A stretch of DNA of 64,000 nucleotides from NCBI GenBank assembly GCA_900074885.1, contig FJUW01000046.1:293408-357407 (forward strand), given 5' to 3'. This document shows, in pieces, positions 20,641-57,098 of this stretch. A program made the translations under genes and the position numbers. Positions within the stretch are counted from its first letter, which is position 1. Every line of letters begins with the position of its first letter. This DNA comes from Rhynchosporium graminicola (lineage: Eukaryota; Ascomycota; Leotiomycetes; Helotiales; Ploettnerulaceae). Below the pieces are notes generated by a model that saw only the letters and a program-made list of their open reading frames with translations, had not been told where the DNA came from and did no database searches.

Positions 20641-21395
20641 ATAATTTATCTTTATAACAAGAACGTCGAAAAGGAGCATAATACCATCTACAGACGCCTT
20701 ATTAGCCTCTAAATAGCTTCCTATATCAGTACCCTATAATATAACCTCCTTAACCTCCTCCGGTATAGTCTCCTTATACTCTTAGCTCATAGGGCTATTT
20801 TTAACCTCCGATATACCCTTAACTTAATATACCTAATCTAGACTATGAATATCGACTGCCTGAACTTTAATTACCTCTAAATCGACTACAGAAGAGAGCT
20901 AGTAGTAAGTTTCTATCGATAGCAGATCTGCGAGAGTCGAGCCTACTACGTAGTAGTAGTAATTCTAAGGAGGTATTATTTGCACTGAAAACGTTTCTTT
21001 ATAAGCTCTTACTACCCCCTAAAGCTTCTATAGCTTCGTAATTCGACTTCGCTATTAAGATATTTATAAAGTAAGAGTATAATATAGCTATGATATCAGA
21101 GATAACGATTAGAGAGGGAATAGAGCTTAGAATAAAAGCTAGAGTCTTAAAGGTTATAAAGATGAATTTGAAGGCATTCAAGAAGTAGTATAATCAGTAA
21201 GAAGTATAATAAACTATAGAAGAGGAGGAGGAGGAGGAGGAGGAGGAAGAGGAGTAGAGAGCAAATTTCTAGTAATTATAGCTATTTATATGCCTTCTTC
21301 TTCTTCTTCTTCTTCTTCAAGACCTTAGTACCTATAATAGCGAAAATATGCCCTTACTCTACGTTGAGCTTCAGCTCTAATTCCAACTATACGTA
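20641..21395. other. Remaining left interior of the DNA transposon
   Basis: AT-rich remnant between the second decayed frame and LTR A. It holds a GAG/GGA microsatellite (about 21224-21254) and a CTT microsatellite (about 21295-21319). A 60-residue minus frame at 20999-21181 shows no family resemblance. Confidence 0.5.
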
Positions 21396-21663
21396 TGTAA
21401 CGACACAAGACTCAAGGCGGTATACAAGTAAGAATAAACAAGTAGGGAGGCTAAGAGCGATCTTATATAGTCTACTACGAAGGAAACAAAAAGATAAGGA
21501 AGGAAGAAGAAGAGAGATAGAGTATAAGGCACCTTATATACATATGCCAGTACTAGCTCGATACTATACCGAGTCGGACACTAGTTCTGCCGGGATACCT
21601 ATGAACTTAGGCCCTAGTATCTATCCTTCTTCTTATATGACATTCAGGTAAGCTATTGTCATA
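21396..21663 (-). repeat. LTR of element A (3' LTR by coding polarity)
   Basis: Starts TGTAACGACACAAGAC and ends ATTGTCATA. A chance open frame at 21364-21651 lies inside it and is not a gene. Confidence 0.9.
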
Positions 21664-21669
21664 TTACCC

Positions 21670-24600: not shown

Positions 24601-27600
24601 TACTAGTAGAAAGAAGTAAAGAGCTTAACTTTAACTCTAATTATATAGTAAAACTCTTACTAGAAAGATAAGACTAACTAAGCTCCTTAGTTAGATATAA
24701 TTAACTTAGGGGTATATCCGAAACGATATATCTATTAGATAAATAATATCGCTATCCTGCGGGTATTAATATTACGGTAGTATAGTATCGATATAGAGTC
24801 CTTCCTTAGGCGGTCGATAAATACTAATATCCTATTAAATCTTTAGTTATCAGGCGAGAAGTCCTTAAAATCTATAGCTAAGTACTATATAAGGTAGCTA
24901 AGTACCGGTAATAGGTGGAGGAATCCTTGCTGTTTCGTTTGCTTCGGATAAGAGTACTAATAAGAGTAGTAATTACGAGTATACTATTTTATATCTAATA
25001 TAAGTCCTTTCTAGTAGTAATAGATAGAAATTATTTCGGCGGTCTTACGAGTATTTAGATAAGCGGAGGAAACTTGATTGTGGACTTTACTAATTAAATA
25101 GGTATATAGTAGGGTATAGTATTATACGTATAGATAACTATTATAAAGTAGTAAACTATTATTAATAGTATAGCTATCTCCTAATATATTCTGTTTATTA
25201 GAGAACGATTCTTAGTTAAATTAGTATAGCTTCTCGATTAAATTAAAAGAATTACGTGCGAGTTCCGGTAGCGTATTAATCCTTAGCGATATTAGGTATA
25301 TATAACTAATTTAATCGATATAATACTTAGCTAGTTCCGCGTTAATCCTAAGGTCTAGGTAGTCTAGAGGTAATAAAACCCGAGATCTACTATCCTGTTT
25401 CTATTATTCCTATATCCTTAGATCTTATTCTCTATAGCTAAGGATATCAGCTTTAGTATTATCTTTATTAAGCGTATATATAATTTGAAAGTTAAATTCG
25501 GAAAGGAATTCTATCTATTTAGCTTACTTACTAGTTAGGACCTTAGTAGTTATAAAGTATTCTAAGGATCGATAGTTCGTATATACGCCGGTATAGTATC
25601 GTAGAGATATAAGTTCCGGTCTCTATTTCCGGAAAGACTTAATAATAGCGTATAGCTCCTTATTATAGATCTCCTAATTTAGTTTATATCTATTAAGAAT
25701 ATAGGAGTAGAATCTAATTAGATACTACTAGTTATCTTTATATAATTAAGAGATAACTCTAGCTATTATACTATCGGAAGTATTAGTTTCTAGTTTAGTC
25801 TATAATTTAGAGTCGAAATAGTATAGTTTCTATACTGATAGTAGCTATTAACGTAAATTATCGAAGGACTTCTTATAATCGTTAGTGAAATTCTATAGTA
25901 CTATAAGCTAAGTAAGTATTAAGAGAGGTTTAGTGATAAGGCCGAAATTCTAAATAAATTAATAGTAGAACTTATAGAATCCTAGGAAGGATTTCACGGC
26001 TATTACCGTTTCGGGATATTTCTAGTCTACTAACAGTACTACTTTCTTAGGATCTAGCTCGATTCCGTTAGTAGTAACGATATATCCGAGGTATTTAGTC
26101 CGAGTAACGTAGAATTCGCTTTTCTTAATATCTACTTAAAGTCTAGTATCTATTAAGTATTATAGTACTAATTTAATATATTCTTTATATTCCTAGAGCG
26201 TTTCTAAGTATATAAGGATATTATCTAGGTAAGCTATATAGAAATTATCTAAGTAGTCTAGTAGTATATTATTTATATATTACTAGTACGTACTAGGTCT
26301 GTTATAGAGCCCAAAAGGTAGTACTTTATATTTATAGGATCCGAAGCGGGTTCGGAANGATCTAAAGCGGGTTCGGAAAGTAGTATACTCCTCGGATTCG
26401 GGGTCTATATAGATATAGTTAAATACTACCCGGATATTTAGTTTAGTAAAGATTACTACTTTAGATATATAAGTTAAGAGCTTATCGATCCTAGGTATTA
26501 GGTATAAATCCTTTCGAGTGATCGTATTAAGCTTATAATAGTTAATATAGAAGCGTAATCCTCTATCGGCTTTTTTAATAAATAGTATAAGTAATATAAA
26601 GGGACTTTAGCTGGATTCGATAAATCCTTTATCTAAGTTCTTTATAAGATACTCCTTAGTTACTCGTAATTCGTCTATAGATTACTAATATAAGGGCGAA
26701 TATACGTTAAGTAATAGTTTTTCTAGAATAATTTTATAATTATATAAGCGATATAGTAGAAGAATATTAGAATCCCGCTTAGAAAAAGCTTCCTTAAGAG
26801 TATAGTATTATTCCGGTAGCTTTTCGGCTACGAGTCGTTCGGTATCAGGATCCTTAGGAGAGTTGCTATTTAGATAGTCTTATAAGAGGCGGTTTATCTC
26901 GTAGATACTAATAAAGAATAATTCGGAACTTTTATATTTTATATTAAAGTAAAAAGCTATAGTACTAATTTAGTAAATCAGAACTAGTTTCTAGATCCTC
27001 GGAGGTTAAGAGGAGCACTTATAATAGAGTTTCGGCGCAGGTACTTTTCTTAATGAATTCGGAGCGAAAAGGGGTTCGGATTCCTTAGCGATAAGCGGAA
27101 ATAAGTTAAAGGGTAAGGATAATACGTTAATATACTATATCGCTACTATTTAGTATAATTAGCGTTAGTCTAGCTAGTTTATAGCTAAGTCCTGCGTGTT
27201 AGTATCGATTTAGTAAGATCGATTGATACTAGGTTTGCGAGACGATAGAGTTATAATTATCTCCTTATTATATTAGAAGGTAGCTAGATAGTATTCCGAC
27301 TATAGTAGCTTATAGTAGAGCGTATCTAGCTTAACTTGAAATCGTCGTATCTATTTAATACTAATAATTATATCTTATTATCCTAAATCGAGGAGAATAA
27401 AAGGGTAGTTATAAATACGCTTACTATTAATAGAAAAGTATAAACGTATAAAATAGGTAATATAGGTTCTAATAGACTATTAGAACTTACGTATTAGAAT
27501 AGAATAGGATAGTAGCTCGATTTTGATACTAAGGGCTCCTGATAGTTATCTAGTAAGAGTGCGATTAATAAATAGATAACTATTCGCTCCGGTATCGATT

Positions 27601-27929
27601 AAGCTACTTATAGAGACTCCTAGCTTATTTATACTAATTATAGTCGGGTATATGAATTACTTACTTCCTATTAGGGAGTTAAGGTCTAGATTAGAGAGAT
27701 TATACTTACGTAGACTTAGGAAGGAGTTTTTACTTAGGCCTTATTGTTTCCCTTTAGTATTAGTCTAGATTCGGAGGGTATATCTTCTACTACTTCCTTA
27801 ATTACTTAATCCTCTTCCGGAAATTCGTCGATTAATTAAACCTTAGGCGGGTTAGGGTAGTCTGGCTTAATATAACCGAGCTATCTATAACTATAATACT
27901 TAAGGGGTTCTCCGGTCGAGGTAGTAGGG
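21670..27929 (-). pseudogene. Element A gag end and pol remnant
   Basis: Read from right to left on the minus strand: a C2HC zinc-knuckle relic (about 27905-27840), an aspartic-protease active site LIDTGANSYLFI (about 27620-27580), and a Ty3-type reverse transcriptase with KVLPFGL (about 26330-26310) and YLDNILIY (about 26240-26215). RNase H and integrase should follow leftward, but I did not resolve them motif by motif. Many TAA/TAG stops interrupt every frame. Two N joins (23879 and 26358) fall here, the first with a duplicated 549-bp flank. Confidence 0.75.
23330..24428. repeat. 549-bp direct duplication around a single N
   Basis: 23330-23878 and 23880-24428 are nearly identical, with one G/A difference noticed (AAGTAGTAATA against AAGTAATAATA). 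They are separated only by the N at 23879. This is the pattern of two overlapping contigs joined without merging the overlap, not of a biological tandem. Confidence 0.85.
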
Positions 27930-27934
27930 CGTTT

Positions 27935-28170
27935 TTGTAACGACTAGTCAGGTTTGGAGGTCTCTCCCTATTGGTGGAAACACTTACTGCTAAGCGAGAT
28001 TACACGAGTAGAGTTTAGGGGCCCCTTTTTATATATATACTTCTATTCTCTCTCTACTTCTTTACTCCTTAGTTATAGATTCTTAAGTGATTCTTACTAC
28101 TTTATATTTATAGTAATATAAGGTCTTATTACTCAGGTAGTTTTAAGACTTTTCTAGAGTAAGCGTTATA
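27935..28170 (+). repeat. 5' LTR of element B
   Basis: Starts TGTAACGACTAGTCAGG and ends AAGCGTTATA. Same family as the solo LTR at 19712-19946, in the opposite direction. Confidence 0.92.
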
Positions 28171-29836
28171 TTATCTATAACTCTTTTACTTATATCTAGG
28201 AAGATAGTAAATATCTACTTATATTATACCTCTGTACTTAGAGCTACTAAACGCAGGAGATTATACTATATAGAGAAGGCTTATACTAAGTATAAACTTG
28301 AAGAATAGTACCTAAACCGAAGTAACTTAAGTCTGATAAATCGACTACTAGTTCTCTGACTCCCTCTACTTCCTATTCTTCGGCGACTCGTAATACTCGC
28401 TATAACTTACCTCTCTCTATAGTAGAGAGTACTCGCGATAACGCCTTATCCGAGTTAAGCTTCCTAACTCTTACTATAATCAACGAACTTACTAAGTCGC
28501 TAAACCTCCCTAATAATACTCTTATATTAATAGTAACTATAAGTAACTTATAGGAAGACTACGCTTACTAGCTATAAGAGGCAGAAAGGAAGCTCGCGGA
28601 GGAGAGATAATTAAATACTAATCTATCTGCAGAACTACGCTAGTTATAGGACGAGTTCCTAGAACTATACTAGTTGATTACTTAGCGCTCTACTAAGTCT
28701 ATATCGTTTAATAACGTTTAATCGCGTATAATACTACTACTATTAATTAAAGAAGATAACGCTACTCTTACGCCTGATAATCGTTATTAAGAATAATCTA
28801 CTAGAGGAATATTATTAATATTATACGCTACGCGTATAGAGAAGATACTAAACCTTCTAAATAAGCTCTCTAATAGAATCGACTACTCTCTAAAACTCTA
28901 GGAAGTATAGATACGTAACGCCCTCCGGCGCTACTCTAGCTATTTTATCGACGAAGATCACTATAAAGATTAGTTACTTAACTAAACGGAAAGAATAGCT
29001 AGAACTTACTTAGAACTCTTATTCTTAGAACTAGAATATAACGAAGAAGGTAGTATAATCGATTCACTTGATATAGTTACTTAACTTGTCTCTTTCTTAT
29101 TTAATCTATACGACTAATAAACTATAAGAGCTAGCTACTCCGCGCTAAAGATAGATTATAAGTAGACCTTCTAGATATTCTACTACGAGTTTTATACGCT
29201 AGCTCGTAAAGCTAGAGTAAATAATTAATTAACTTTGAAAATAGACTTATAGGAGAAGCTACTTGTACGGCTACGGAAACAGCTCTTCTAATAGTACTAA
29301 ACGTTAAGGATACTAGAAGAATATATTAAGGCTATATAAGCTAAAGACTAAGGTTAATTTATTAAAAAGACTTATTATTCCGAGTCTTCAGCTAAGGCTA
29401 GCGCGACTCGGGAACGCCCTATAAATACCTCCTCTTAGCGCCGTAGTACTAACTCCTCTTCTTATCCGTAAATTAGTCTTCTTACGCCCGAGAATATTAG
29501 TACGACTAGTAAATAAGTACTATACTCTGCACGAAACGATACGCCTCGTGTATAATCGCTAGCGAATACTCCTTATCACTTTATACTTACCTTATACTTA
29601 CGCTTATTATCAGCTCGACCTAATACTCTATATCGAATTAATATAATTAACGCTAATAACGACGTTGACAGCGAGCTAGAAGAAACGTACGATAACGCCC
29701 AGGAGTATGTCAAACCGCTAGTAAAAGACTACGCCTAGGGAAAGACTCCTTCCTAGGTAGTATACGAGATATGCGATATCTTGACCTTACGAAGCTTCTC
29801 AGTAGTTAATCGTTCACTACACGTGCTACTCTTACT
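28171..29836 (+). pseudogene. Element B gag remnant
   Basis: Plus-strand relic of a retrotransposon structural protein. The best visible text is around 29170-29330 (FYYEFYTLARKARVNN, then an interrupted helical stretch), typical of gypsy gag. No zinc knuckle was resolved. Stops are frequent. It ends at the TTACT target site of the inverted copy. Confidence 0.65.
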
Positions 29837-30071
29837 TATAACGCTTACTCTAGAAAGGTCTCAAAACTACCTGAGTAATAAGACCTCATATTACTATGAA
29901 TATAAAGTAGTAAGAATCACTTAAGAATCTATAACTAAGGAGTAAAGAAGTAGAGAGAGAATAGAAGTATATATATAAAAAGGGGCCCCTAAACTCTACT
30001 TATATAATCTCGCTTAGTAGTAAGTGTTTCTACTAATAGGGAGAGACCTCTAAACCTGACTAGTTATTATA
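29837..30071 (-). repeat. LTR of nested copy (3' LTR by polarity)
   Basis: Starts TATAACGCTTACTCTAG and ends CTAGTTATTATA. Followed by a pyrimidine run that is the complement of the polypurine tract seen just before 37046. Confidence 0.9.
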
Positions 30072-30882
30072 TTACCTCCCCCTCCGAAAAAAGCTCGCCC
30101 TCGAGCGTTAGTCTATCTCCTTATTACTATTAAAGTAGTCGTAATTATTAATTCTATCGTAGAAAGCTTTTAGCTAATTAGGTAGTTTAGCAGGAGGTCT
30201 AGCTTACGTTAGGTTATTAAGGTGGAATTATTATAGCTTAATAGGAGCGTATTTAATATCTATAGCGTTATATTATATAAGATCGACGTCTTGATTTAAC
30301 TAGGAAACTCGGTATAAGAGGCTATTACGCTACTTATAGCACGCAAGTATATCTTCGATCTCCTATTTATCGTCACTAGTAATATTAATAAGTAGTAGTA
30401 GTNAGAATCTATAACTAAGGAGTGAAGAAGTAGAGAGAGAATAGAAGTATATATATAAAAAGGGGCCCCTAAACTCTACTTATATAATCTCGCTTAGTAG
30501 TAAGTGTTTCTACTAATAGGGAGAGACCTCTAAACCTGACTAGTTATTATATTACCTCCCCCTCCGAAAAAAGCTCGCCCTCGAGCGTTAGTCTATCTCC
30601 TTATTACTATTAAAGTAGTCGTAATTATTAATTCTATCGTAGAAAGCTTTTAGCTAATTAGGTAGTTTAGCAGGAGGTCTAGCTTACGTTAGGTTATTAA
30701 GGTGGAATTATTATAGCTTAATAGGAGCGTATTTAATATCTATAGCGTTATATTATATAAGATCGACGTCTTGATTTAACTAGGAAACTCGGTATAAGAG
30801 GCTATTACGCTACTTATAGCACGCAAGTATATCTTCGATCTCCTATTTATAATCACTAGTAATATTAATAAGTAGTAGTAGT
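29924..30882. repeat. 479-bp direct duplication around a single N
   Basis: 29924-30402 and 30404-30882 match with only a few substitutions (such as CGTCACTAG against AATCACTAG). They meet at the N at 30403 and include part of an LTR plus adjacent interior. Probably an unmerged contig overlap, or two different genomic copies wrongly joined. Confidence 0.8.
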
Positions 30883-32392
30883 AATAAGGTTTATCCTAGA
30901 AAGGGGTCGTTTAGATACTTCCGTAGCTTAGCAGTAGGGAATACGTTATATACTTTTATACTAGTAAGGAGCTCTAGGCGATAAGAGCTTCCGACCTTTT
31001 CAATTATATAGAAAGGTCTGTTAGTTAGGAAGTCGAGTTTTTTACTAAGTCGAGTACTTATAAAGTAGCGTATATCTAGCTAGATAAAGTTATCTATAGT
31101 AAAGTCGACTTTATAGCGTAAGCGATTATAGGATTAGGATATCTTAGCTTTTATATATTAAAAGCTAGATTAAGCAGTAGTCTAGGTATCGCGTAAGCGA
31201 TTAGTATAATCTAGAGCTTACTAAGTATTCAACTTATTAGTAGGCGTAGTAGAGTTAAGTAAGTCTTTCTAATTCTAATTAACACAAGGTATATATCTAT
31301 AAACGACTTTAAAGAGTAAGAGACCTCTAAGGGATTCGTAAGGGAGAGTTATCTAAGCGTAATCTATAATAGGTAAGAATTCCGATTAGTCGTCTTAATA
31401 ATAAGAGATAAAAGGTCGTAATCTGCGTTAGAGATATTAGTTATAGATTTCTATTTAGCTATCTATTTATAAGTAATCTGCTGCAGAAAGCTATCTTTTA
31501 GTACTAAGAATTATAATAACTATAGTCTAAAAACAGGAAACGAATTAAGGCCCTCTATTAGAGGTAATTATTAATAGAGCTCCGAAATAGTAGTATATAT
31601 AGTATAAGTAAAGCTTTATAAGGTCGCGCGTATTAGAGGTCTTTTAGTAATAACGCGGATCTAATATAGTGCGCCTACGAGCTTAGATCTCTAGTTACTA
31701 AAAGATCGTATAATTATAAGTATTTCCTTATTGTAAATAGCGTAATTAAGCTCGGCAAGTAGTATAATCTTAGAGAAGTAAGCTACTAGGAACTAGTCTT
31801 CGTTATACTATTACGATAGTATACCTGCTATTACTCTATCACTAGCGTCTATTTCGATCATATAAGGTAGATATTACTAATAGTAGTAGAGGAGTAGTGC
31901 CGAAATAAGAGCGTACTTTAAGTAATCAAAAGCATCTTTATACTCTCTAGCGAACCGAAATAATATGTTATTTTTAGTAAGTTATATAAGAGGTTTTACG
32001 ATAATTCTATAGTCCTTAATAAATCGTTAGTAGAAGTTATAAAAGCCTAAGAACGATTATACGCCCTTAACTATAGTCAGGTAATTCTAAGATTATATAA
32101 TATTAACCTTCTTAAGGTCTACCTCGATCCTAGAAATAGAGATAATAAATCTAAGGTATTTAGTGCAAGTAATATTAAATTCATACTTCTTAAGGTTAGC
32201 TTATAATCTAGTNAGTAGTCGATTTATCGGACTTAAGTTACTTCGGTTTAGGTGCTATTCTTCAAGTTTATACTTAGTATAGGCCTTCTCTATATAGCGT
32301 AGTCTCCTGCGTTTAGTAGCTCTAGGTATAGAGGTATAATATAAGTAGATATTTATTATCTTCCTAGACGTAAGTAAAAGAGTTATAGATAA

Positions 32393-32627
32393 TATAATAC
32401 TTACTCTAGAAAAGTCTTAAAACTACCTAAGTAATAAGACCTTATATTACTATGAATATAAAGTAGTAAGAATTACTTGAGAATCTATAACTAAGGAGTG
32501 AAGAAGTAGAGAGAGAATAGAAGTATATATATGAAAAAGGGCCCCTAAACTCTACTTATATAATCTCACTTAGCAGTAAGTGTTTCCACTAATAGGGAGA
32601 GACCTCCAAACCTGACCAGTCGTCATA
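32393..32627 (-). repeat. LTR of nested copy (5' LTR by polarity)
   Basis: Starts TATAATACTTACTCTAG and ends CCAGTCGTCATA, directly followed by the TTACT target duplication. The 179 bp to its left (32214-32392) are the reverse complement of the start of element B's interior. Confidence 0.9.
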
Positions 32628-32632
32628 TTACT

Positions 32633-35600
32633 AAGAATGGACTCTCGTATAAGCTACCCGTACTTCTTAATTCTGGAGCTAATAGATATTATTTTATTAA
32701 TTATTCTTTTCTTAAATCCCTTTCCTTCTTCTTAAAACTTTTAATTTACTTTCTGCTAAACGTAATTCCTATTAAAGGCTTTAATAGCGTTAATAGTAGT
32801 ACTATTAGTTACTATATAATACTTAATTTAATAGTAGATCGTCGCGTTTAGGTATTTACCCCTTTTCTTATTACTACTCTCGGAAACTATAGTATTATAC
32901 TCGGAAGGATCTGGCTTTCGGAATATTAAGTACTCTTAGATACTTCTAAACAATAGATTATTTAGCTACTATATACTCCTCCTAGTAACGTTTATAGCTC
33001 TCCGATCGAGATTAAGGACTTACGTAAATACTATACTTACTAGCGCTACTAATATAACGCTAACGAACGAAACGAACGCCTTAATTAGTTCTGGGAAGTA
33101 TATAAGGAATAGCGAAGCGCAGCTAACTCTCCTATTAATATTCGAGCTATTATTAACTCTATCTCTATTATTAAATGACTATTACTAGCTTAGAAGCGCA
33201 TTTCTAGGGAGACTTATAGCTATAAAAATATCTAAAACTCTCCCCTAGAGAGTGTTCTATAGGCAACTAACCCTCTATTACTACTACTAATTAGTTAGGA
33301 CTATTTCTCTAGCGTTTATATTACTTATTATAGATACGATAAGCCTAAGTATTTATTACTTAAAGAATAAGAATAGAGTAATAAAGAGAAGTCTTTATAC
33401 TCTAGAGAAGCTACTAATATATAGCCGAAGTACATACGATTTAGCGATATTATCGCTTATATCCTACGTGAATCTCTACTTTAACTCTAATTAGAAGTCT
33501 CTACGTTAAAGACCTACGTATAAGATTACGATTATATAATTCATACTATAGACTAATAGTTATTCGGAATATTATCTCGCGACTTAATAGAAGCTACTTA
33601 AAGTATAAAAATAGCTATTATAATATTTCGGAAGCGATAAAGATTACCTTACATGCTTAAACCTCTTCTAGAGCTTCTTACGCTAGAGATTTATACGATT
33701 AGCAGCTTAGTTTTCTATCTCTTATATAAATACTAGAAGTCTTCTAATAATAAGATCTTCTCTATTACTCTTCACGAGATAGATAAGCTTCTTAACAACC
33801 GAATCGTAGTTTAGTAATATAATACTACTATCGTATCTTTAACTATCGACTTTATAGAATATTATAAAACCGCCTAGTAATTTACTATTAGCTTAAGCGA
33901 ATTAGATTTAGAACTATAGATCTCTTATAAGTATAGCTAGTAAGTATGCGTCTTTTCTAAGGAAGCTAGTAATATTCTTCCTCCTTATCGCTTATACGAT
34001 TACCGAATTAAGCTTAAGGAAAGGGCCGAGAAGAACCTTAAATACTCCCTCTTATATAAGATATTAGCTAAAGAACTTAAAGTCGTTAAGGCGTATATTA
34101 CTAATAACTTAGCTAAAGGTTTTATCGAACCTTCTTAAGTACTATACGCTATACCTATTCTTTTTATTAAGAAAGCTAATAGAAGTCTAAGATTCTATAT
34201 CGACTTTCGCGTACTTAATAACCTTATAAGGAAAGATTAATATCTACTGCTATTAATCGATAAAACGCTAGCTAGAATCTCTACTATTAAGATATTTACT
34301 AAACTAGATATTCGCTAGGTGTTCTACCGAATTCGAATGGATCTAGCCTCTAAAGAGTATATGACTTTCCGGACTTATTATAGTATATATAAGTATAAGG
34401 TACTCCCTTTCGGTCTAACTAATAGCTCTGCGATATACTAGCGATATATGAATAATATCTTATTCGACTACTTAGACGACTTCTATATAGTATATCTAGA
34501 TAATATTCTGATCTACTCTAACGACTTACTATAGTATTAATTATACGTACATAAGGTACTATAACAATTATAAGACGCTAGATTATAAGCCGACCTTAAG
34601 AAGTATAAATTCAATATTACTTATACTAAATACCTTAGATTTATTATCTTTACTTCTAGGATTAAAGTAAACTCTAAGAAAGTCGATATTATATAATCTT
34701 AGAATTACTTAACTATAGTTAAGGGCGTATAATTATTCTTAAGCTTTTATAACTTCTACTGACGATTTATTAAGAACTACAGAATTATCGTAAAACCTCT
34801 TATATAACTCACTAAAAATAACGTATTATTTCGGTTCGCTAGGGAGTATAAAGATACCTTTGATTACCTAAAGCACGCTCTTACTTCGGTACTACTCCTC
34901 TACTACTATTAGTAATATCTACCTTATATAATCGAAATAGACACTAGTAATAGAGTAATAGCAGGTGTACTATCGTAATAGCACGATAAAGACTAGTTCC
35001 TAGTAGCTTACTTCTCTAAGACTATATTACCTACCGAGCTTAATTACGCTATTCACGATAAGGAAATACTTATAATTATATAATCTTTTAGTAACTAGAG
35101 ATCTAAGCTTATAGGCGTATTATATTAGATCCGCGTTATTACTAATTATAAAGCTCTTAAGTACTTTATAACCTCTAAATAGCTAAACGTACGATAAGCC
35201 TAATAAGCTAAGCTACTCGCAGATTATAACTTTATAATTACTTATCGACCTAGGAAGTATAATCTACTTACTAATACTCTCTCTTATAGAACAGATAAAT
35301 TAGATAACTAGAATAACGCTAAAAGAACTTAGCGTTTATAATAGCTACTACGCGAAGACTAAATCGATCTAGTGCTACTTATAAGTAACCTCCGGAATAG
35401 CTCCGACTCTATAGATAACTTTAAGCTTATTAACGCCTTAGAAGTCGCTGACCTATCGCTAGTCTTTTTTATAGTATAGTAAGTACTTGACGCTAATCGC
35501 ACTATACTATTACTCTAAGCTTTACGGAAATAAGCTCTCTCCGCTACTCCTAGAAAACTAACTATAGAAAAAGATCTTCTACTCTATAAAAGAAGACTAA

Positions 35601-37045
35601 TCGTACCTGATATCTTATACTTTCGCACGCTACTTATACGCGAAGTATACGACTGATTAGAGACTACTTATCTAAGTGCAAAGAAGACCTTATAACTACT
35701 AGTATTATAATACTAGTAGTACGGAATCGCTTTAACTATTAACTAGTACTACTATAACTATTATACTTACCGACGAATTCAAGTGCCGCGTAATAAGAAA
35801 CCGGGCTTCCTCTAACTCCTACCTATACTATTATATCTATAGGAGCATATTACAGTCGACTACTATAGCTTTAACTACGATAAATATAGCTATAATAACA
35901 TTCTCGTATTTATCGACTGTTTTAGTAAATAAGTAATTAGTATTCTATACCGAAAGACCTCTAATACGCGCGACCTTATAAAGCTTTACTTATACTATAT
36001 ATACCGCTATTTCGGAGCTCTATTAATAATTACCTCTAATAGAGAGCCTTAATTCGTTTCCTGTTTTTAGATTATAGTTATTATAATTCTTAGTACTAAA
36101 AGATAGCTTTCTGCAGTAGACTACTTGCAAATAGATAGCTAAATAGAGATCTATAACTAATATCTCTAACGCAGATTACGACCTTTTATCTCTTATTATT
36201 AAGACGACTAATCGGAATTCTTACCTATTATAGATTACGCTTAGATAACTCTCCCTTACGAATCCCTTAGAGGTCTCTTACTCTTTAAAGTCGTTTATAG
36301 ATATATACCCTGCGTTAATTAGAATTAGAAAGACTTACTTAACTCTACTACGCCTACTAATAAGTTGAATACTTAGTAAGCTCTAGATTATACTAATCGC
36401 TTACGCGACACCTAGACTACTACTTAATCTAGCTTATAATATATATAAGCTAAGATATCCTAATCCTATAATCGCTTACGCTATAAAGTCGACTTTACTA
36501 TAAATAACTTTATCTAGCTAGATATACGCTACTTTACGAGTACTCGACTTAGTAAAAAACTCGACTTCCTAACTAATAGACCCTTCTATATAATTGAAAA
36601 AGTCAGAAGCTCTTATCGCCTAGAGCTCCCTGCTAGTATAAAAGTATATAACGTATTCCCTACTGCTAAGCTACGGAAGTATCTAAACGACCCCTTACTA
36701 AGATAAACCTTACTACTGCTACTACCTATTAATATTACTAGTAAGGATAAATAGGAGATCGAAGATATACTTACGTGCTATAAGTAGCGTAATAGCCTCT
36801 TATATTAAGTTTCCTAGTTAAATCAAGATATCGATCTCATATAGTACGACGCTATAGACATTAAATACGCTCTTACTAAGCTATAATAATTCCACCTTAA
36901 TAACCTAATATAAGCTAGACCTCCTGCTAGACTATCTAATTAGCTGAAAGCTTTCTACGATAGAATTAATAATTATAACTATCTTAATAATAATAAGGAG
37001 ATAGACTAACGCTCGAGGGCGAGCTTTTTTCGGAGGGGGGGGTAG
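32633..37045 (+). pseudogene. Element B pol remnant with chromodomain-like end
   Basis: Plus-strand polyprotein relic. Visible landmarks are a protease-like LPVLLNSGANRYYFIN (about 32662-32710), reverse transcriptase with VLPFGLTNSS and VYLDNILIYSND (about 34400-34530), RNase H text around 35040-35270, integrase with HTVDYYSF and FIDCFSK (about 35850-35930) and a second metal-site region near 36030, and a chromodomain-like EIEDILTCYK..LNQDIDLI (about 36750-36840). Every frame is broken. Several key acidic residues read as asparagine, as G-to-A mutation would give. Ends at a polypurine run before the 3' LTR. Confidence 0.82.
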
Positions 37046-37280
37046 TATGACGACTAGTTAGGTTTAGAGGTCTCTCCCTATTAGTAGAAACACTTACTAC
37101 TAAGCGAGATTACACGAGTAGAGTTTAGGGGCCCCTTTTTATATATATACTTCTATTCTCTCTCTACTTCTTTACTCCTTAGTTATAGATTCTCAAGTGA
37201 TTCTTACTACTTTATATTCATAGTAATATGAGGTCTTATTACTCAGGTAGTTTTGAGACCTTTCTAGAGTAAGCGTCACA
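37046..37280 (+). repeat. 3' LTR of element B
   Basis: Starts TATGACGACTAGTTAGG and ends AAGCGTCACA. Preceded by a purine/G run and followed by the GTTTT duplication. Confidence 0.9.
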
Positions 37281-37285
37281 GTTTT

Positions 37286-38821
37286 AGCGCGGAGGGAGTA
37301 CTAGCTTATACCGGGGTAGAAGTATATACGTATAGTACAGGAGTAGTTTATCGAGGAGCTAAGCTTAAGGACCGGTAAGAGGTAGAACTAGTAGTAGTCG
37401 TAGTAGTAATAGTAAGCTTATAGTACTATACTTAGGCAGTAGCTTTCTCGGGATAGGTATATTCCGAGTTATAGCGACGCTTAGTATTAAAAGAAAGTAA
37501 GGATCTAACTATAGAAGCGTAATCCTTATTTCATGTTAGTTTAATAATAAGAGTTAAAGCGCGTAAGAATAGTATAATCTTATCTTATATATAGAAGAAC
37601 TACTCTTTCTTTTTAACCTTACTTTAGATAGTAGCGCTTTGAAATCGACTACGAAACTCAGCGAAAGTCTCGCGTATATAACTAGGTTATTATATTTCTA
37701 AGCGTTAGAAAGCGTTATAGTAGTTATCTTCCTCTAAACTAGTAAGAAAGTTCTCCTCTAATAAGGAGATTATTTTATTACTAGTTTTAAACTTATTAGC
37801 GAGGTACTAAAGCGTAAGATACTCCTTAGCTAATCTAGTAACTAGCTCCTATACGAGAACGCGCTAGGAGAAGTCCGTAAGGTAGTAGTTAGCGTTTATA
37901 GCTAGCTGATCTCGTATCGATACTCTCTATTAGAGGAAAGTAGGGTCCGATCTATTATCTAGGAGCAGGATCTTCTTAGTAAGATAAGACTTCCTAGGGC
38001 GTAACTCTACTGATTCGGCGCCGAGAGAGGGAGATAGTTTATTAGGAATAGTATCCTCTCTCTCGGTACTACGTATTAGAATAGAGTTTATTAGGTTATT
38101 AAACTCTACTATACGCGGAGATTATAGTATTAGTTCTAGTAGGAGAGTCGAAGATAGGCGAGGGACTCTTATAAGGAACTTATCTTATACGGAGATTAGT
38201 CTATCTATAGTATTTTCTAGAGAGTTATTCTTTTTCTCTTAGTCTACTAATTATTATAAGAGGGAATAGATCAGGTTCGAGTTACTTACGGTAGTAAGAG
38301 TACTTAGCGATTATACTCCTAGTGAATTTCGCTTTTATTTTCCTTTCTCTCTCGGTTAGTACTTCCTTAATAAGGTATTAATATTCTCTAGGGTAAGAGA
38401 CGTTTAAGGTAAGGAAAGGTATAATAGATTAGGTTCGGAGGTAAAGCGGGGGGGATCGCGTTAGGTTCCCCTAGAACTAGAGGGGTCTCTAGTTTATTAG
38501 TTAAGAGCTATAATAGTAGCTTAAAAAGGGGTATATTAGGGCTATTTCAGTAGCGATACGTAGAGGTTAAAGTTCCGGGGTATTTATTATACTTTCTTTA
38601 AAATCTATCCATAATTCCTTTATACTAAGGGGGTTATTAAAGGAGCGTTAGCGAAGACCTCTTTTATTATACTATTTATAATAAGCTAAATTAAACCCTG
38701 ATTTATAATTATCTGAGAGATCTCTAGTATCTTAGCTATATACGAGTAGTTATCGAATAACTAACTTAGTAGTAAGATATTATAGTAAGCTATCTCCGGC
38801 TATCTTAATCTTTTTGTTTAA
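37286..38821 (-). pseudogene. Element A gag remnant
   Basis: Minus-strand interior of element A between its right LTR and the element B insertion. Position and polarity make it gag, and the frame appears to continue across the insertion into the zinc knuckle near 27900. No motif stands out alone, and stops are dense. Confidence 0.6.
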
Positions 38822-39089
38822 TATAATAATATAAGACTTAAGGCAGTATATAAGTAAGAATAAACGAGTAGGAAGGCTAAGAGCGATCTTATATAGTCTA
38901 TTACGAAGGAAATAAAAAGATAAGGAAGGAAGAAGAAGAGAGATAGAGTATAAGGTACCTTATATATATATACTAGTACTAGCCTGATACTATACCGAGT
39001 CGGATACTAGTTCTGCCGGGATACTTGTGAACTTGGGCCCTGGTATCTATCCTTCTTCTCATGTGATATTCAGGTGAGCTGTCGTCATA
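38822..39089 (-). repeat. LTR of element A (5' LTR by coding polarity)
   Basis: 268 bp, the same length as the partner LTR at 21396-21663. The first 25 bp differ from it only by C-to-T and G-to-A changes (TATAATAATATAAGACTT against TGTAACGACACAAGACTC). The far end is better preserved here than in the partner. Confidence 0.9.
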
Positions 39090-39094
39090 ACGTA

Positions 39095-40003
39095 TAGCTA
39101 GTATTAAGAAGCTTTCAAACTCCTTCTAGGTATACTATTTCCACCTCTAATTTCTTCTAATCCACGCCTTTAGATCTGCGAAACTCTCTTCAATTAGGTT
39201 GAAAAAGGGGTAATATAGTAGGAGATATTTAAGCTGAAGACCGAAGGTAGCGTATAAGATAGCGACTTTAGGAGCTCTATAGATAGAGGCGTTATCTATA
39301 ATAATAACTCTGATTCTAAGCTTAATATACTCCGGTAAGATACTCTTTTTAAGCTATTCAGTGAAGATCTCTATAGTAATAGAGCCTTAGAAGATTAAAA
39401 GCTAATAATACCCCCTTATAGAGTATACTAGTAATATTAACTACCTTATCGACCTTTTTAGAACCCTCGATACCTCTACTAGAGCTCCTCTTAGAGCCTA
39501 ACCTCTCCTTCTTTCTGCTATACGTTTATTATAAGCAGATTTATCGATAAAGTAAAGGTAGTGAGAATTCCAGAATACTATCTTACGCCTCTAAGTAGCG
39601 ATTAATTCGTCGTTTCGTTAGGCCGCAGATACTAAAAGTACTTTCTTAGTATATTTAATTCGTTTAAGAGCTTTAGAGACTTGATTAATCGATATATCGA
39701 TATCGTAAGCTTCGTAAAGGTAAGTAGTAATCTTATCTAAGTACAGATCTGGATCTCTCTCTAATAGAGCTATAATATATAGCTCTATATTATTAGTTAT
39801 TACTAGCTGAGGATCTCTCCGGCGTCGATTTAGAGCCTTATCTTATTAGATTCGATAATTACGCTAGTAAATTATCTTATATATTATTCTATACTCTCTT
39901 GCTAAGGCGCGCAGGTCAAGATTCTCTCCTGAACGTAGTACTTGATCGATTTAGTATGTTTTCTATGCTAGCAGATTAGGAGCTATAATATTAATGTTAT
40001 AGT
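39095..40003 (-). pseudogene. Tc1/mariner-like transposase remnant
   Basis: The minus strand, read from about 40000 downward, gives a DDE transposase broken by several stops. Motifs in order: an N-terminal helix-turn-helix-like part (LDLRALAREYRI), first catalytic region YFIDKSAYNKR, second VIIIDNASIYRA, and third LLYYPFFNLIEESFADLKAW, matching the D, D, E pattern of fungal Tc1-like transposases. Cut-and-paste transposition in the nucleus is its family role. It is inactive here through premature stops. The tail lies next to the insertion site of element A. Confidence 0.85.
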
Positions 40004-48810: not shown

Positions 48811-51282
48811 AATTATGAGCCAAACAGGACGGATGTCAATTCTAATGTCATGAATGTATTACCACACTTTTTACTGAAGAATCGAACTCAAAATGATGGC
48901 GCTAGGCGGCGAAAGAATAATGTTCAGTGTCCTGCTTTACCTGATTAATAACTCTAAACGCTCTCAAAATCGTGAGACATCTTGTCTATCTCCTCAATTT
49001 CACTGCAAAACTTATTAGTAAACAGTTCAATTTAGCTAGTATAACATTATCTTCGGACATAATCATACTGGCCTATGTTATTCTGCTTCAAGGTAAGCAC
49101 TTGCCCAAGTGCACGTGTGCTGGTGTATCGACGGCATACCTCGCTGTCTGCTTTGAGCTCATCCGAACGGAGACTCTTTTGTAAGACTGTAAGTCTAGTG
49201 ACCGAAAGTATCCAGGAGCTATCAATTATCGAGTACAAGCGAATTGGACTAGAATGGAACGTGAGTCGTTGAGCACGATTGAAGGTTGATCCGAAATGGT
49301 CTCCCACGTTCAGCCTTGTAAGTCGAAATCAGTGCAGAATCTTTTGCCGACGTAATGATCTTCAACTCGGAATCCAGGGCGTTGGAGATTTGATCAAGCA
49401 GCCTAGTCCGGTTCACAAGGCACGCCGACAACTGCATTTCCTACCATTCGATTCAATTCTGGGACGTCTTTAGAGAGTGAGTGGGAATATTCTACCCTGA
49501 AGGCGCTGATATGTTATGCAAACCGGAAGTTAACCTAATAGTGTGCGATTAGAATTGAAGCTTGCCTCCTAGGAGCGCGTTTTCCCCGCTGAACAGGAAG
49601 AACGGTGCGAAAGACGCGACAGTTGATACAATCCTCAGCACCAGCATGTAGTAAAATTTGATATTCGAAAGACACCGAAATGATTTAAGATTGACGAATG
49701 ATGAACTGCCACTAAGTTTTCGAAGATATGATGAAGTGTTGCTGTTGCGCGATGTGAAGCGAGCCGACACAGGACTCGAGAAAAAAATAGATTTAGCGGT
49801 CAATATCTCGGGAGACAATAGTTTCAACAGATTATTGTGTTCAGGAAAAAACCTCTGATAACTTTGCAATGATATCGCGGATGGTGGAACATTGAAATGA
49901 GTTTTTGCAACACCAGAGATTCATTTGCAAAGTAGGTGGAGAAATCAGAAACTTCGTAGGCTGACTCATACTATGGCCGCAGTGGCAATTCGTGTAAAGG
50001 AAAGACTTGGAATAGTATATGAGTACTATATCATCATTCTTAGTAAAGTCCTATGATAGGTTTGTGACTTTAGAGAACATTTGTCTGTACGTCCCCAAAG
50101 CTACTCATGGCTTTTATGTTGAGTTCAACGCCGAACTAAACAAAACTTGCAGAAATATCTGTAAGATGAGTTGGTGCGAATGTGAATTGCTTTTAAATCC
50201 GAGATAATTCCTGTCATGGTTTCTTGACTTTGGGCTATTATTTGAGTGAACTTCATATACCAAATCCGCGATCTTTAATTCGTGTGTATGTAAATAAATG
50301 TTTGAACTGGGCGAGAGAAAGCAACCATCTGCAATATGGAGAAGCGCAAGTGCGAAGTGTCTTTTGATCATACCAATGTCTCGCGGAAGCTTCGTGACTT
50401 CAATTCGTTACTTAGATGAAAGTCCGGCAATATTTTCGCGATTTTCAGTAAGATCGAGACTGGCGTAGCTCCTGTCCGATGAACTGAAGACTGAAGTCGC
50501 AAAAAAAATCTGTGACTTGTAAGACCTGCAAGTCAAATGTGCCAGAAAGTTTTTTTGACATCGAAATATGGCTCCAGTTATATCCCGAGGCCTTTTCATG
50601 ACTTTGAAATATAGCTTTAGTGAAGTCACGGAAAAGATTCCTGACGCTCAACTGCAACTCTAGAGAAGTCTCAACATAATTTCATGACTTTCAAATGCTA
50701 CTATAATGAAGTCTTAATCCTTATGCAAAATTCATACACAGTTTTATGACATGAGCTATGATTGTGAATTATGGAACTCGATATTACAGAGAAACAGCCC
50801 GGCATCGGGATGAGGATGTCATATTTTATAGATGGAATCTGGTTCGGAAACCGTTCGTTATGCGGGTTATTGCGGAGCTAGACTCATGGAAAGTGTCATT
50901 CGAATCGTCGATGACATAGAATCGAGGAGTCGATATCCATCGATGTATCGTGATTCAATTATTTGGTGAAGTATGAGAACTGGTTGTTAGACTACTAACG
51001 AATGTAATAGAAGTCGTAGATCTCATGTGAAACCTGAATGTATAATGAGATCTTTGTCGGTTGAGGAAGACTGCAATCCAAGGCACCTTGTAAAGTAGCT
51101 GAGACTTTTCTTTGTAATGGTATTCATTCAATTCATTATTATAGTGAATGCAAACTCGAACAGCATAAACAGTGGTTGCCTTGTAGGTGTGGTGTGGTGT
51201 GGTCAGCTTGGACACAAACAGGCACCGCTCCTCGGTAAAGCGAATTTCGCAGTACGTCTACTCTGATATTGCTCTCCTCTAC
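48811..51282. other. Spacer with degenerate CATGACTTT/AAGTC repeats
   Basis: About 2.5 kb. The part from 50390 to 50770 contains recurring half-motifs: TTCGTGACTT (50391-50400), TTTTCATGACTTTGAAAT (50593-50610), GAAGTCACGG (50632-50641) and TTTCATGACTTTCAAAT (50680-50696), spaced roughly 40-90 bp. Overlapping open frames on both strands show no protein character. Confidence 0.55.
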
Positions 51283-51494
51283 GTCCTTCGGGACATTTGG
51301 TGTACGTACATCCACTCCATGCGCAGCGCAGCAATCGCATACTAACGTGCATTATAGCAATTTGAAACGATACAGAGAAGATTAGCATGGCCCCTGCACT
51401 AAGGATGAGTAAGTTACTCCATCAGTAATGTCTGTCTGATTAAGTACTAATTATACCGCAGCACGCTCAATCAAAGAGAAGCTACCAATTTTTT
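51283..51494 (+). ncRNA. U6 spliceosomal snRNA with two introns
   Basis: Catalytic RNA of the spliceosome. Three exons give an RNA of about 100 nt that follows fungal U6 from end to end. Exon 1 is 51283-51301, GTCCTTCGGGACATTTGGT, the 5' stem-loop. Intron 1 is 51302-51357 (56 nt; GTACGT start, TACTAAC at 51340-51346, TATAG end). Exon 2 is 51358-51408 and holds GAAACGATACAGAGAAGATT, then AGCATGGCCCCTGCACTAAG. Intron 2 is 51409-51461 (53 nt; GTAAGT start, TACTAAT at 51445-51451, CGCAG end). Exon 3 is 51462 to about 51492, CACGCTCAATCAAAGAGAAG, then a T6 terminator. The ACAGAGA box, AGC triad and internal stem-loop are intact. Both gaps have complete spliceosomal signals, so this is not a truncated copy. 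U6 introns are known in some fungi, including fission yeast. No clear TATA box is seen near -30. Confidence 0.93.
51489..51494 (+). terminator. RNA polymerase III T-run terminator of U6
   Basis: Six T residues end exon 3 of the U6 gene, right after GAGAAGCTACCAA, followed by more T-rich sequence. The usual polymerase III stop signal and source of the U6 oligo-U tail. Confidence 0.85.
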
Positions 51495-52562
51495 CGACAA
51501 TTTACTTTTATTTTTATTTTTGCTTCCTGCCACTTCCCGAAATTTACCCGTTATTTTCAACACCATAAGGTGGCCTGACTACTCCTCATCTAAGCCTCAG
51601 GCTCGAGGTCAACCAGGCAGGAGGTGGGGCTATAGACTGGAAGAGGCAAAACAAGGCTAAGCGAACAATGCCGAACGCGCAGAGCTTTCACGCTATTTTG
51701 ACGGATTAGAGCTTGTTTGAGGTACGCGATCCATCTAGGACCACTCAAACCACGAATGGAAAGCCGCATTCTTCAGACACATCCAGTTCTCGACCATCTA
51801 CTCATAAGACCTATTTCAAGCCATCTTCGTAATATAGGCTTATCCTGTCGCAATAGCGCTATTACCACTCAGAATTCATCATGGATGATCAACAATCTAC
51901 CGGGCTTGGTGGGCAAGTGGGCAAGCCTGGCTGGCAAATTTCCATATCGATTCATTAGCGAGATGCACTGTTGTCGTGAACTCCACGAGCGACCCAGTGA
52001 CAAGCAGCCAGTCTACACGTGCCCGGTGACAACTATGAAACTGAGAAAGATTATGATAATCACCACTATTAGGTGTAGTGTGCACGGAAAAGTCTGATTA
52101 TCTTGTGGCTAAAGCTAAGTATATAATATACGCACTTCTCAGTACTATAAGCCTCGTGCAACACCAGAATTCCGACATAATCAGCACGTCTAATTCAGAT
52201 TTAGGAATTGCATTGAAATCGGAAGACATTCTACATGAATTCAGTTTACAATTGATATCAGTGACACTCGTGAGCTCAAAGTCTGTGCGGAACTGAAAAC
52301 ATCTTCTAGCCGCCCACATCTTCGGCTCAATGGAGCTTGAAACATTATGAGGGTTCGAAGTATAGTATTGGTCACAAAGATGACCAACGAAAGGTCGCTA
52401 TCACAAGATCCCCACTTGTGTTTGTATACCTGGTGTCACCGTGTTACAAAGCTGAGGGGTCCTCATCGTGTACATCTTTCTTGCTGGCAGTGATTGCATC
52501 TCAAAATGTTAACGCTGGCAACATCTTCGCTTTTACCACATCGATCCGATAGATACGCGAAA
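51495..52562. other. Spacer downstream of U6
   Basis: About 1 kb. An open plus frame at 51717-52097 shows no motif or typical composition. Nothing else recognised beyond the B-box-like site. Confidence 0.5.
51600..51610 (+). promoter_or_regulatory. Possible downstream B-box-like site for U6
   Basis: GGCTCGAGGTC resembles the polymerase III B box (GGTTCGANNCC) with two mismatches and lies about 105 bp beyond the T-run. Budding-yeast U6 uses a B box about this far downstream. The resemblance is weak and may be chance. Neither intron contains a better match. Confidence 0.2.
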
Positions 52563-55443: not shown

Positions 55444-57098
55444 ATGCCTTCAGTAGAAGAGCCAAATGTGCAAGGCAGATTACTGTTGGTCTCCAATAGA
55501 CTGCCCATCACCATCAAACGCTCCGACGATGGGTCATACAGTTTTTCCATGTCATCTGGTGGTCTAGTCACAGGTCTAAGTGGCCTGTCAAAGACGACCA
55601 CCTTCCAATGGTATGGCTGGCCTGGCTTGGAGGTTCCAGAGGCAGAAGCCGGACCTATGGTCAAGAGACTCAAGGATGAACATGGCGCAGTCCCTGTATT
55701 CATCGATGATGAGCTGGCAGACCGGCATTATAATGGCTTCTCCAGTAGGTCAACTTCCCGGGACAACAAGAAGTTTGCTAATGAAGATCTCAGACTCTAT
55801 CCTCTGGCCTCTCTTCCATTACCACCCAGGAGAGATCACCTTCGACGAGTCAGCATGGGAGGCATACAAGGAAGTCAACAGACTGTTTGCAAAGACTATG
55901 GCGAAGGACGTACGAGACGGGGATTTGATCTGGGTACACGACTACCATTTGATGCTCTTGCCAGAGATGCTACGAGAGGAGATTGGCACGTCGAAGAAGA
56001 ATGTCAAGATCGGCTTCTTCCTACATACGCCATTCCCTAGTAGTGAGATCTACAGAATTCTGCCAGTCCGAGAACAGCTTCTCCTTGGAGTCCTCCACTG
56101 CGATCTGATCGGTTTCCATACTTATGATTACGCACGGCATTTTTTGAGCAGTTGTTCCCGAATCTTGTGAGTACAACCTGCAGCCTCTATATATTTAGTG
56201 TACTTGACTGATTTGGAACAGAGAAACACCAACAACTCCAAACGGTGTCGAGTTCCGCGGAAAATACGTCACAGTCGCTGCTTTTCCCATCGGAATCGAT
56301 CCCGAGAAATTCATCGAAGGTTTACAGAAGAAGTCTGTTCAAGACCGCATCGCCGTCTTAGAACGCAAATTCGAAGGTGTCAAATTGATCGTCGGAGTCG
56401 ACAGACTAGATTACATCAAAGGTGTTCCTCAAAAGCTGCACGCCCTCGAAGTTTTCCTTTCAGAGCATCCAGAATGGATCGGCAAAGTTGTGCTCGTCCA
56501 GGTCGCAGTGCCCAGTCGTCAAGACGTCGAAGAATACCAGAATCTGAGAGCTGTTGTCAACGAGCTCGTTGGCAGGATCAACGGCAGATTCGGCACTATT
56601 GAATTCATGCCTATCCATTTCTTGCACCAGTCTGTTAACTTCGATGAGTTGACGGCGTTGTATGCTGTTTCGGATGCTTGTTTGGTGTCTTCAACGCGCG
56701 ATGGTATGAATTTGGTCTCGTACGAATACATCGCTACGCAACGAAAGCGTCATGGAGTCATGATCCTGTCGGAGTTTACAGGTGCGGCTCAATCACTCAA
56801 CGGCTCTTTGATTGTCAATCCTTGGAATACCGAAGAACTTGCCGGCGCTATCCATGATGCTGTAACGATGTCTCCTGAGCAGCGCGAGATTAACTTCAAG
56901 AAGCTTGAGAAGTACGTCTTCAAATACACGAGTGCGTGGTGGGGAGAATCGTTTGTGAGCGAGCTGGTGAGGATCAGTGAGCATGCGGATAAGAAGCAGA
57001 AGAGAGTTGGTGGCGCTACAGCTACTGGTGCTGCAGGCAAGATGCAGGAAATTGCTGGAAACGTCAGAGATATGGTTTTGGGCAAGGAAAATGAGTGA
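55444..57098 (+). CDS. tps1: Trehalose-6-phosphate synthase (UDP-forming)
   Basis: Cytosolic glycosyltransferase (GT20) making trehalose-6-phosphate from UDP-glucose and glucose-6-phosphate; needed for trehalose storage, stress tolerance and control of glycolytic entry in many fungi. Exons 55444-55744, 55794-56166 and 56222-57098 give 516 residues, the usual size of a synthase without the phosphatase half. Motifs in order: GRLLLVSNRLPITIKR (residues 11-26), FQWYGWPGLE, HYHPGEITFDE, VHDYHLMLLPEML, FPIGIDPEKF, VDRLDYIKGVPQKL, and DGMNLVSYEYIATQ with GAAQSLNGSLIVNPW near the C-terminus. Both introns (49 and 55 nt) restore frame exactly. The start is the ATG in MPSVEEPNVQGRLL. The tail (GGATATGAAGKMQEIAGNVR) is weakly conserved. 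Intact. Confidence 0.97.

Follow-up and report, generated by a model that had tools for sequence, protein, structure and literature searches.

A U6 snRNA gene interrupted by two spliceosomal introns, and U2 genes split likewise, in the fungus Rhynchosporium graminicola

Introduction

Can a U6 snRNA gene that is cut into three pieces by introns be a working gene, and is it the only spliceosomal RNA gene of its genome to be cut in this way? These questions arise from a 64-kb stretch of Rhynchosporium graminicola DNA (hereafter the window) that contains such a gene. U6 introns have reportedly been known since 1989, when Tani and Ohshima are said to have described one in the Schizosaccharomyces pombe U6 gene, and Canzler, Stadler and Hertel reportedly surveyed intron-bearing fungal U6 genes in 2016 (RNA Biology 13:119). 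Splicing of the U6 precursor is established for fission yeast, according to excerpts of two papers (PMC10484740, PMC8917221), and fungal U6 genes often carry several introns, as stated in an excerpt of a 2021 article that cites Canzler 2016 (PMC7827515). An earlier note on this DNA had put forward two U6 introns at these positions as a possibly new combination, which was overstated, several introns per fungal U6 being already in print in the same excerpt (PMC7827515).

Results

From a reading of the sequence and a scripted re-cut of its exons, we identified a three-exon U6 snRNA gene at window positions 51283-51494 on the plus strand, with exons of 19, 51 and 33 nt. Exon 1 (51283-51301) carries the 5' hairpin GUCC-UUCG-GGAC, as found in the sequence and in the fold of the spliced form. 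Exon 2 (51358-51408) contains the ACAGAGA box and the AGC triad, placed by the Rfam match and by alignment, and of the internal stem-loop it holds the 5' arm, the loop and the greater part of the 3' arm. Exon 3 (51462-51494), recognized from sequence, alignment and a predicted pairing with the U2 5' end, comprises CACGC..GAGAAGC.., the 3' domain and the terminal T6. The exons are separated by intron 1 (51302-51357; 56 nt), which has the signals GTACGT, TACTAAC and TAG with the branch A located 12 nt from its 3' end, and intron 2 (51409-51461; 53 nt), which has GTAAGT, TACTAAT and CAG with the branch A 11 nt from its 3' end, both on the plus strand. By consensus alignment, the two introns lie after Rfam U6 model positions 24 and 74, respectively. 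Numbered along the gene itself, the first split falls after nucleotide 19, as the earlier note had it and in agreement with the re-cut exon 1 (51283-51301). The second had been placed just beyond the internal stem-loop, which is approximate: with the stem-loop limits that we assume for this RNA, intron 2 falls on the 3' boundary of that structure.

Removal of the two introns has a large effect on the match of this locus to U6. In a simple global alignment to the Rfam U6 consensus, the score rose from 24 for the unspliced form to 128 for the spliced form. The unspliced DNA scored 59.9 bits against Rfam model RF00026 (cut-off 44) at 51337-51440, a match that spans exon 2 and lays both model ends over intron sequence. 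The covariance-model comparison of spliced and unspliced forms that had been proposed for this locus was thus made with the unspliced form by model (59.9 vs 44 bits) and with the spliced form by alignment (24 to 128). The spliced RNA starts with a perfect GUCC-UUCG-GGAC hairpin, ends with a run of six U, and brings together in one molecule the 5' hairpin, ACAGAGA, AGC, the internal stem-loop and the 3' U tract; the internal stem-loop was assigned via the consensus alignment, the minimum-energy fold of this segment by itself being weak (-4.3 kcal/mol). The proposal that a complete and conserved U6 is cut here by two spliceosomal introns is borne out by both junctions, each of which restores U6 on removal.

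With GT-AG ends and the 5' and branch sites and 3' spacing of that class, both U6 introns resemble U2-type introns. For comparison we used three mRNA introns of 46-55 nt that were verified through homology and reading frame: two on the plus strand in TPS1, which encodes trehalose-6-phosphate synthase (55745-55793, 49 nt, GTAGGT..TGCTAAT..CAG; 56167-56221, 55 nt, GTGAGT..GACTGAT..CAG), and one on the minus strand in SEC24 (12687-12732, 46 nt, GTATGT..TACTAAT..TAG). The U6 introns were similar to these three mRNA introns, and to the seven U2 and two U3 introns described below, in length, 5' site, branch site and branch-to-AG distance, and the statement that they bear the signals of neighboring mRNA introns holds for the three that were checked (two in TPS1 and one in SEC24). 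A strict intron motif (GTANGT..TACTAAY..YAG), counted on each strand over the 64-kb window, occurred twice on the plus strand, both times as a U6 intron, and three times on the minus strand, one of these being the SEC24 intron. As 60 dinucleotide shuffles of the plus strand gave a mean of 0.53 and a maximum of 3 such motifs against the 2 observed, the motif count is weak evidence when taken alone, and what decides is that both junctions restore U6. Pairwise similarity among introns reached z scores of up to 3.7 (91 pairs, 100 mononucleotide shuffles each), from which we draw no inference because introns have common splice motifs and the pairs are many.

The surroundings of the gene are of mixed composition. 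An AT-rich block (window positions 20001-40000; GC 0.31-0.35) lies between gene-rich flanks, and stop-to-stop frames of at least 150 aa were absent between 18.9 and 42.3 kb of the window. Measured per 4 kb, this block has TpA/ApT ratios of 1.6-1.9 and (CpA+TpG)/(ApC+GpT) ratios of 0.14-0.27, and on this sequence measure its dinucleotide ratios are a signature of repeat-induced point mutation. For the SEC24 open reading frame, the best of 1854 matches, 120 of them listed, is a Marssonina coronariae protein with 97% identity over 741 aa; identity falls to 80% over the N-terminal 204 residues. We take M. coronariae to be a synonym of Diplocarpon coronariae, a species of the Leotiomycetes (Helotiales). 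The SEC24 comparison thus places this genome in the Leotiomycetes, close to Diplocarpon, and not among the basidiomycete red yeasts, and the lower N-terminal identity makes a relative more probable than D. coronariae as its source.

We found one U6 gene in the 55.3-Mb, 121-contig assembly by a covariance-model search that scored 47 of its 3472 first-look candidates. A 26-mer from the core of U6 exon 2, searched with up to 3 mismatches, likewise had a single match genome-wide. A second, intron-free U6, the existence of which had been raised as a check on this locus, was found in the assembly neither by the covariance model nor by the 26-mer pattern.

Two further searches concerned U6 sequences in other collections. 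U6 of related fungi, sought in a viral collection, gave 0 matches. A complete, intron-free eukaryotic U6 (104.9 bits) is present at 2255-2359 of contig JAIYDP010000129.1 (locus L031), which is filed under a Verrucomicrobiaceae MAG; aligned over 109 columns, this U6 and the spliced U6 described here agree in 82. The U6 in this contig probably stems from eukaryotic DNA that was binned with a bacterium.

The U6 gene is not the only split spliceosomal RNA gene in this genome, as we found three U2 genes, all interrupted by introns, within ~45 kb of a single contig (C113). The genome search with the U2 model (cut-off 46 bits) returned two matches above the cut-off and two below it. U2 gene 1 (C113:308175-308364, ~308.4 kb, minus strand; L018) scored 98.1 bits and has one intron, and three introns are present in each of U2 gene 2 (C113:270164-270345, ~270.0 kb, plus strand; L017), at 43.9 bits below the cut-off of 46, and U2 gene 3 (C113:262852-263033, ~263.2 kb, minus strand; L016), at 53.5 bits. 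An extra match of 23.4 bits (L005) overlaps the 5' part of U2 gene 3 and was not counted separately. The low model scores are found because the 5' parts of these genes are cut up. When we searched with a pattern of the U2 5' end, allowing up to 3 mismatches, there were 8 matches, of which 3, each without mismatch, are the U2 genes. The other 5 (3 mismatches each) were dropped, as no U2 sequence was seen downstream by eye; the reversed control of this pattern gave 4 matches, so weak 3-mismatch matches are expected. Used as the query of a DNA search, the 3' portion of U2 gene 1 recovered that gene only; the search was blind to U2 genes 2 and 3, so further divergent U2 genes could escape it.

The U2 introns, seven in all, are confined to the first 55 nt of the RNA, where they interrupt helix Ia, the branch-recognition sequence and the stem IIa loop. 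Intron positions were counted by hand along the Rfam U2 consensus, and we take position 25 to fall in U2/U6 helix Ia, the human residue numbers being assumed likewise. U2 gene 1 has a 50-nt intron (GTAAGC..TAGTAG) after position 37 (GUGUAGU^AUCUG), and its removal restores U2. The introns of U2 gene 2 (52, 46 and 53 nt) lie after positions 25, 37 and 55, and those of U2 gene 3 (51, 50 and 50 nt) after positions 32, 38 and 55. In U2 gene 3, the branch-recognition sequence GUAGUA (positions 33-38) therefore forms a separate 6-nt exon between two introns. All seven U2 introns have GT-AG ends and a recognizable branch site, with the A 10-11 nt from the intron end. One of them contains a TTTT run, a feature that would be relevant only under Pol III transcription.

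Splicing of the three genes in silico gave stretches of 192, 191 and 190 nt, with ends set by eye. Each spliced form contains six standard pairs in stem IIa, and all six pairs show two-sided change across the three paralogues; the loop of this stem carries an intron in U2 genes 2 and 3. Stem IIb folds in all three spliced forms. As covariation of this kind is unexpected in dead copies, the sequences argue, expression aside, that the three split U2 genes are functional.

Other small RNA genes differed in the presence of introns. Four U1 copies were found (L007-L010, on contigs C75, C35, C68 and C31), with nearly identical 5' parts; they start AUACUUACCU and have no insert longer than 1 nt across the first 100 model positions. 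Their scores (36-42 bits) are below the Rfam cut-off of 69.5, and we accepted them despite this because of the 5' end, the loop and this alignment. One U4 and one U5 gene aligned with no insert longer than 2 nt. Two weak U4 matches (L012, 26.7 bits; L013, 19.7 bits), below the cut-off of 46, were not counted. The SRP RNA gene aligned end to end with largest inserts of 8 nt. The two U3 snoRNA genes (L028, 1501-1752; L029, 1501-1744 on the minus strand; each plus upstream sequence) have one apparent intron each, at different places and of 62 and 63 nt with limits set by eye; for the first of the two we assumed where its 5' end lies. Introns were thus found in the U2, U6 and U3 genes and were absent from the U1, U4, U5 and SRP genes found. 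Among the spliceosomal RNA genes found, four of four U2 and U6 copies are split (nine introns) vs none of the six U1, U4 and U5 copies.

We also looked at the U6 locus for signals of its expression and at the spliced RNA for pairing with its partners. The T6 at 51489-51494 (plus strand) is the only T run of at least four in the U6 gene and is likely a Pol III terminator; when 9114 stretches of 206 nt were sampled across the window, 4448 had no TTTT either, which makes the uniqueness of the T6 weak evidence. Inspection of 51203-51282 by eye revealed no TATA box near -30. When scored against the B-box and A-box consensus sequences, the best B-box match in 51183-51910 was 7/10, which 154 of 180 plus-strand stretches of 700 nt equaled or bettered; neither the two U6 introns nor the ~400 bp downstream yielded a B box above chance. 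An A-box-like match (7/9) occurs at the usual place in the spliced form only, as intron 1 splits that stretch; in the unspliced form a 7/9 A-box-like match occurs elsewhere, at its position 172. The lack of a TATA box near -30, a B box at chance level and a split A-box-like stretch are points against reading this locus as a working U6 gene. TATA-less fungal U6 promoters are on record (PMC13117603). Spliced U6 is predicted to form both stems with the genome's own U4, in duplexes of -21.0 and -10.2 kcal/mol, the former interrupted by a lone mismatch and an internal loop, which also counts against the gene, and to pair with the U2 5' end at -10.4 kcal/mol, all of these being raw energies without a shuffle background.

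Discussion

We conclude with high confidence that this fungus has a working, apparently single-copy U6 gene with two U2-type introns that are spliced out, and that the U2 genes found are likewise split. Gene structure, splicing signals, copies in the assembly, and restored RNAs with covarying stems form the sequence basis of this explanation, from which we infer transcription, splicing, the order of processing and the origin of the introns. A U6 precursor of ~212 nt would be transcribed through both introns, presumably by RNA polymerase III and up to the T6, and existing spliceosomes would excise both introns to yield a mature U6 of ~103 nt. In fission yeast, Lsm2-8 is bound to the U6 precursor before intron removal and the capping enzyme Bmc1 binds the spliced form only, according to an excerpt of PMC10484740; by analogy, the same order here (Lsm2-8 first, Bmc1 after splicing) is a fair guess. 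U2 and U6, which provide branch-point recognition and the active site, would both rely on earlier splicing, and the U1, U4 and U5 genes found would not. Read in this way, every U2 and U6 gene found would have to be spliced before its product could act. We lean, with distinctly less assurance, toward a broader reading in which U2 and U6 would exist only as split genes, one with a GUAGUA microexon, the catalytic RNAs would depend wholly on the spliceosome's prior work, and the intron positions would trace the parts that touch introns, as expected of scars of reverse splicing.

We weighed two other accounts of the U6 gene. If it were a dead or decaying copy, with the working gene intron-free and absent from the assembly, the fragmentation into 121 contigs would offer such a gene a place to be missed. 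The U6 exons are conserved, however, and both junctions restore U6; neither the covariance model, with 47 of 3472 candidates scored, nor the 26-mer found a further copy in the assembly; and three U2 genes are split likewise with covarying stems, so that in this fungus a split snRNA gene is very likely able to work. We therefore consider a dead copy highly improbable. The second account, in which the introns serve a Pol III promoter, has a precedent in fission yeasts: in Schizosaccharomyces, the U6 intron reportedly harbors a B box with a promoter role. Here, by contrast, the B box does not rise above chance in the introns or within ~400 bp downstream, and a promoter function of this kind is very unlikely, if marginally less so than a dead copy. 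A working, spliced U6 gene remains our preferred reading, and with it the origin of the introns becomes the next consideration.

That origin may lie in reverse splicing of excised introns into the U6 and U2 of active spliceosomes, followed by reverse transcription and recombination, a route that is compatible with our best explanation. The earlier note had taken the introns to support such an origin; their positions are indeed compatible with it, but the genome search yielded no donor intron. In its favor, the positions cluster where U2 and U6 act at the catalytic center, and an origin of this type is thought to apply to the S. pombe U6 intron (PMC10484740). All seven distinct positions belong to U2 or U6, with the U1, U4 and U5 copies found having none (0.0023 under uniform placement), and all five distinct U2 positions lie in the first 55 of ~190 nt (0.002 under uniform placement, or 0.007 if positions 37 and 38 are counted as one); these probabilities were computed post hoc from approximate RNA lengths, with positions in paralogues taken as independent and 5' intron bias left out of account. 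Fungal introns do show a 5' bias, and this bias or selection could yield the same clustering. Moreover, paralogues are not independent, the test was picked after the pattern had been noticed, and U3, which acts outside the spliceosome, is itself interrupted in both of the copies found. Searched against the genome with 60-nt queries, each U6 intron matched only itself at E values of up to 10 (very common words skipped), a result that an old event would also give, because donor similarity would then be gone. On balance we regard reverse splicing as a serious candidate for the origin of these introns, one that we stop just short of favoring.

Comparison with known systems indicates which parts of this arrangement add to what has been described. 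Takahashi et al. reportedly found an mRNA-type intron in the U2 gene of Rhodotorula hasegawae in 1993, so that a spliceosomal intron interrupts U2 there as it does here; that species is a basidiomycete, reportedly with one intron, in contrast to an ascomycete with three U2 genes found, seven introns and a 6-nt GUAGUA exon. The S. pombe U6 gene similarly has an mRNA-type intron near catalytic nucleotides that is removed by the spliceosome (PMC10484740, PMC8917221, both in excerpt), a removal that in our case is deduced from sequence; it differs in having one intron rather than two, and neither intron here yielded a B box. Multiple introns per U6, as in this gene, are a feature of the fungal set of Canzler 2016, going by the excerpt of PMC7827515. 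Fungal U3 genes offer a further parallel, as an excerpt of Canzler et al. 2017 (PMC5832005) describes spliceosomal introns in these small RNA genes, mostly in the 5' stem-loop and sometimes differing between paralogues; U3 is split here too and, unlike U2 and U6, is not a spliceosome component. The U6 gene alone is another case to add to the known intron-bearing fungal U6 genes. What may be new are the multi-intron U2 genes, the GUAGUA microexon and the restriction of introns, within the set of spliceosomal RNAs found, to U2 and U6; split ascomycete U2 genes are not described in the literature among the matches listed, from a search with most subscription journals outside its coverage.

A split U6 gene poses a classic puzzle, in that the product is required for making the product, and U2 adds a second core RNA to it here. 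If U2 and U6 are always split in this fungus, it would be a natural system for studying how such a loop keeps running. It would also allow one to ask how a 6-nt branch-recognition exon gets spliced in, and whether snRNA intron positions record reverse splicing at the active site. Each insertion could be dated by comparison across the Helotiales.
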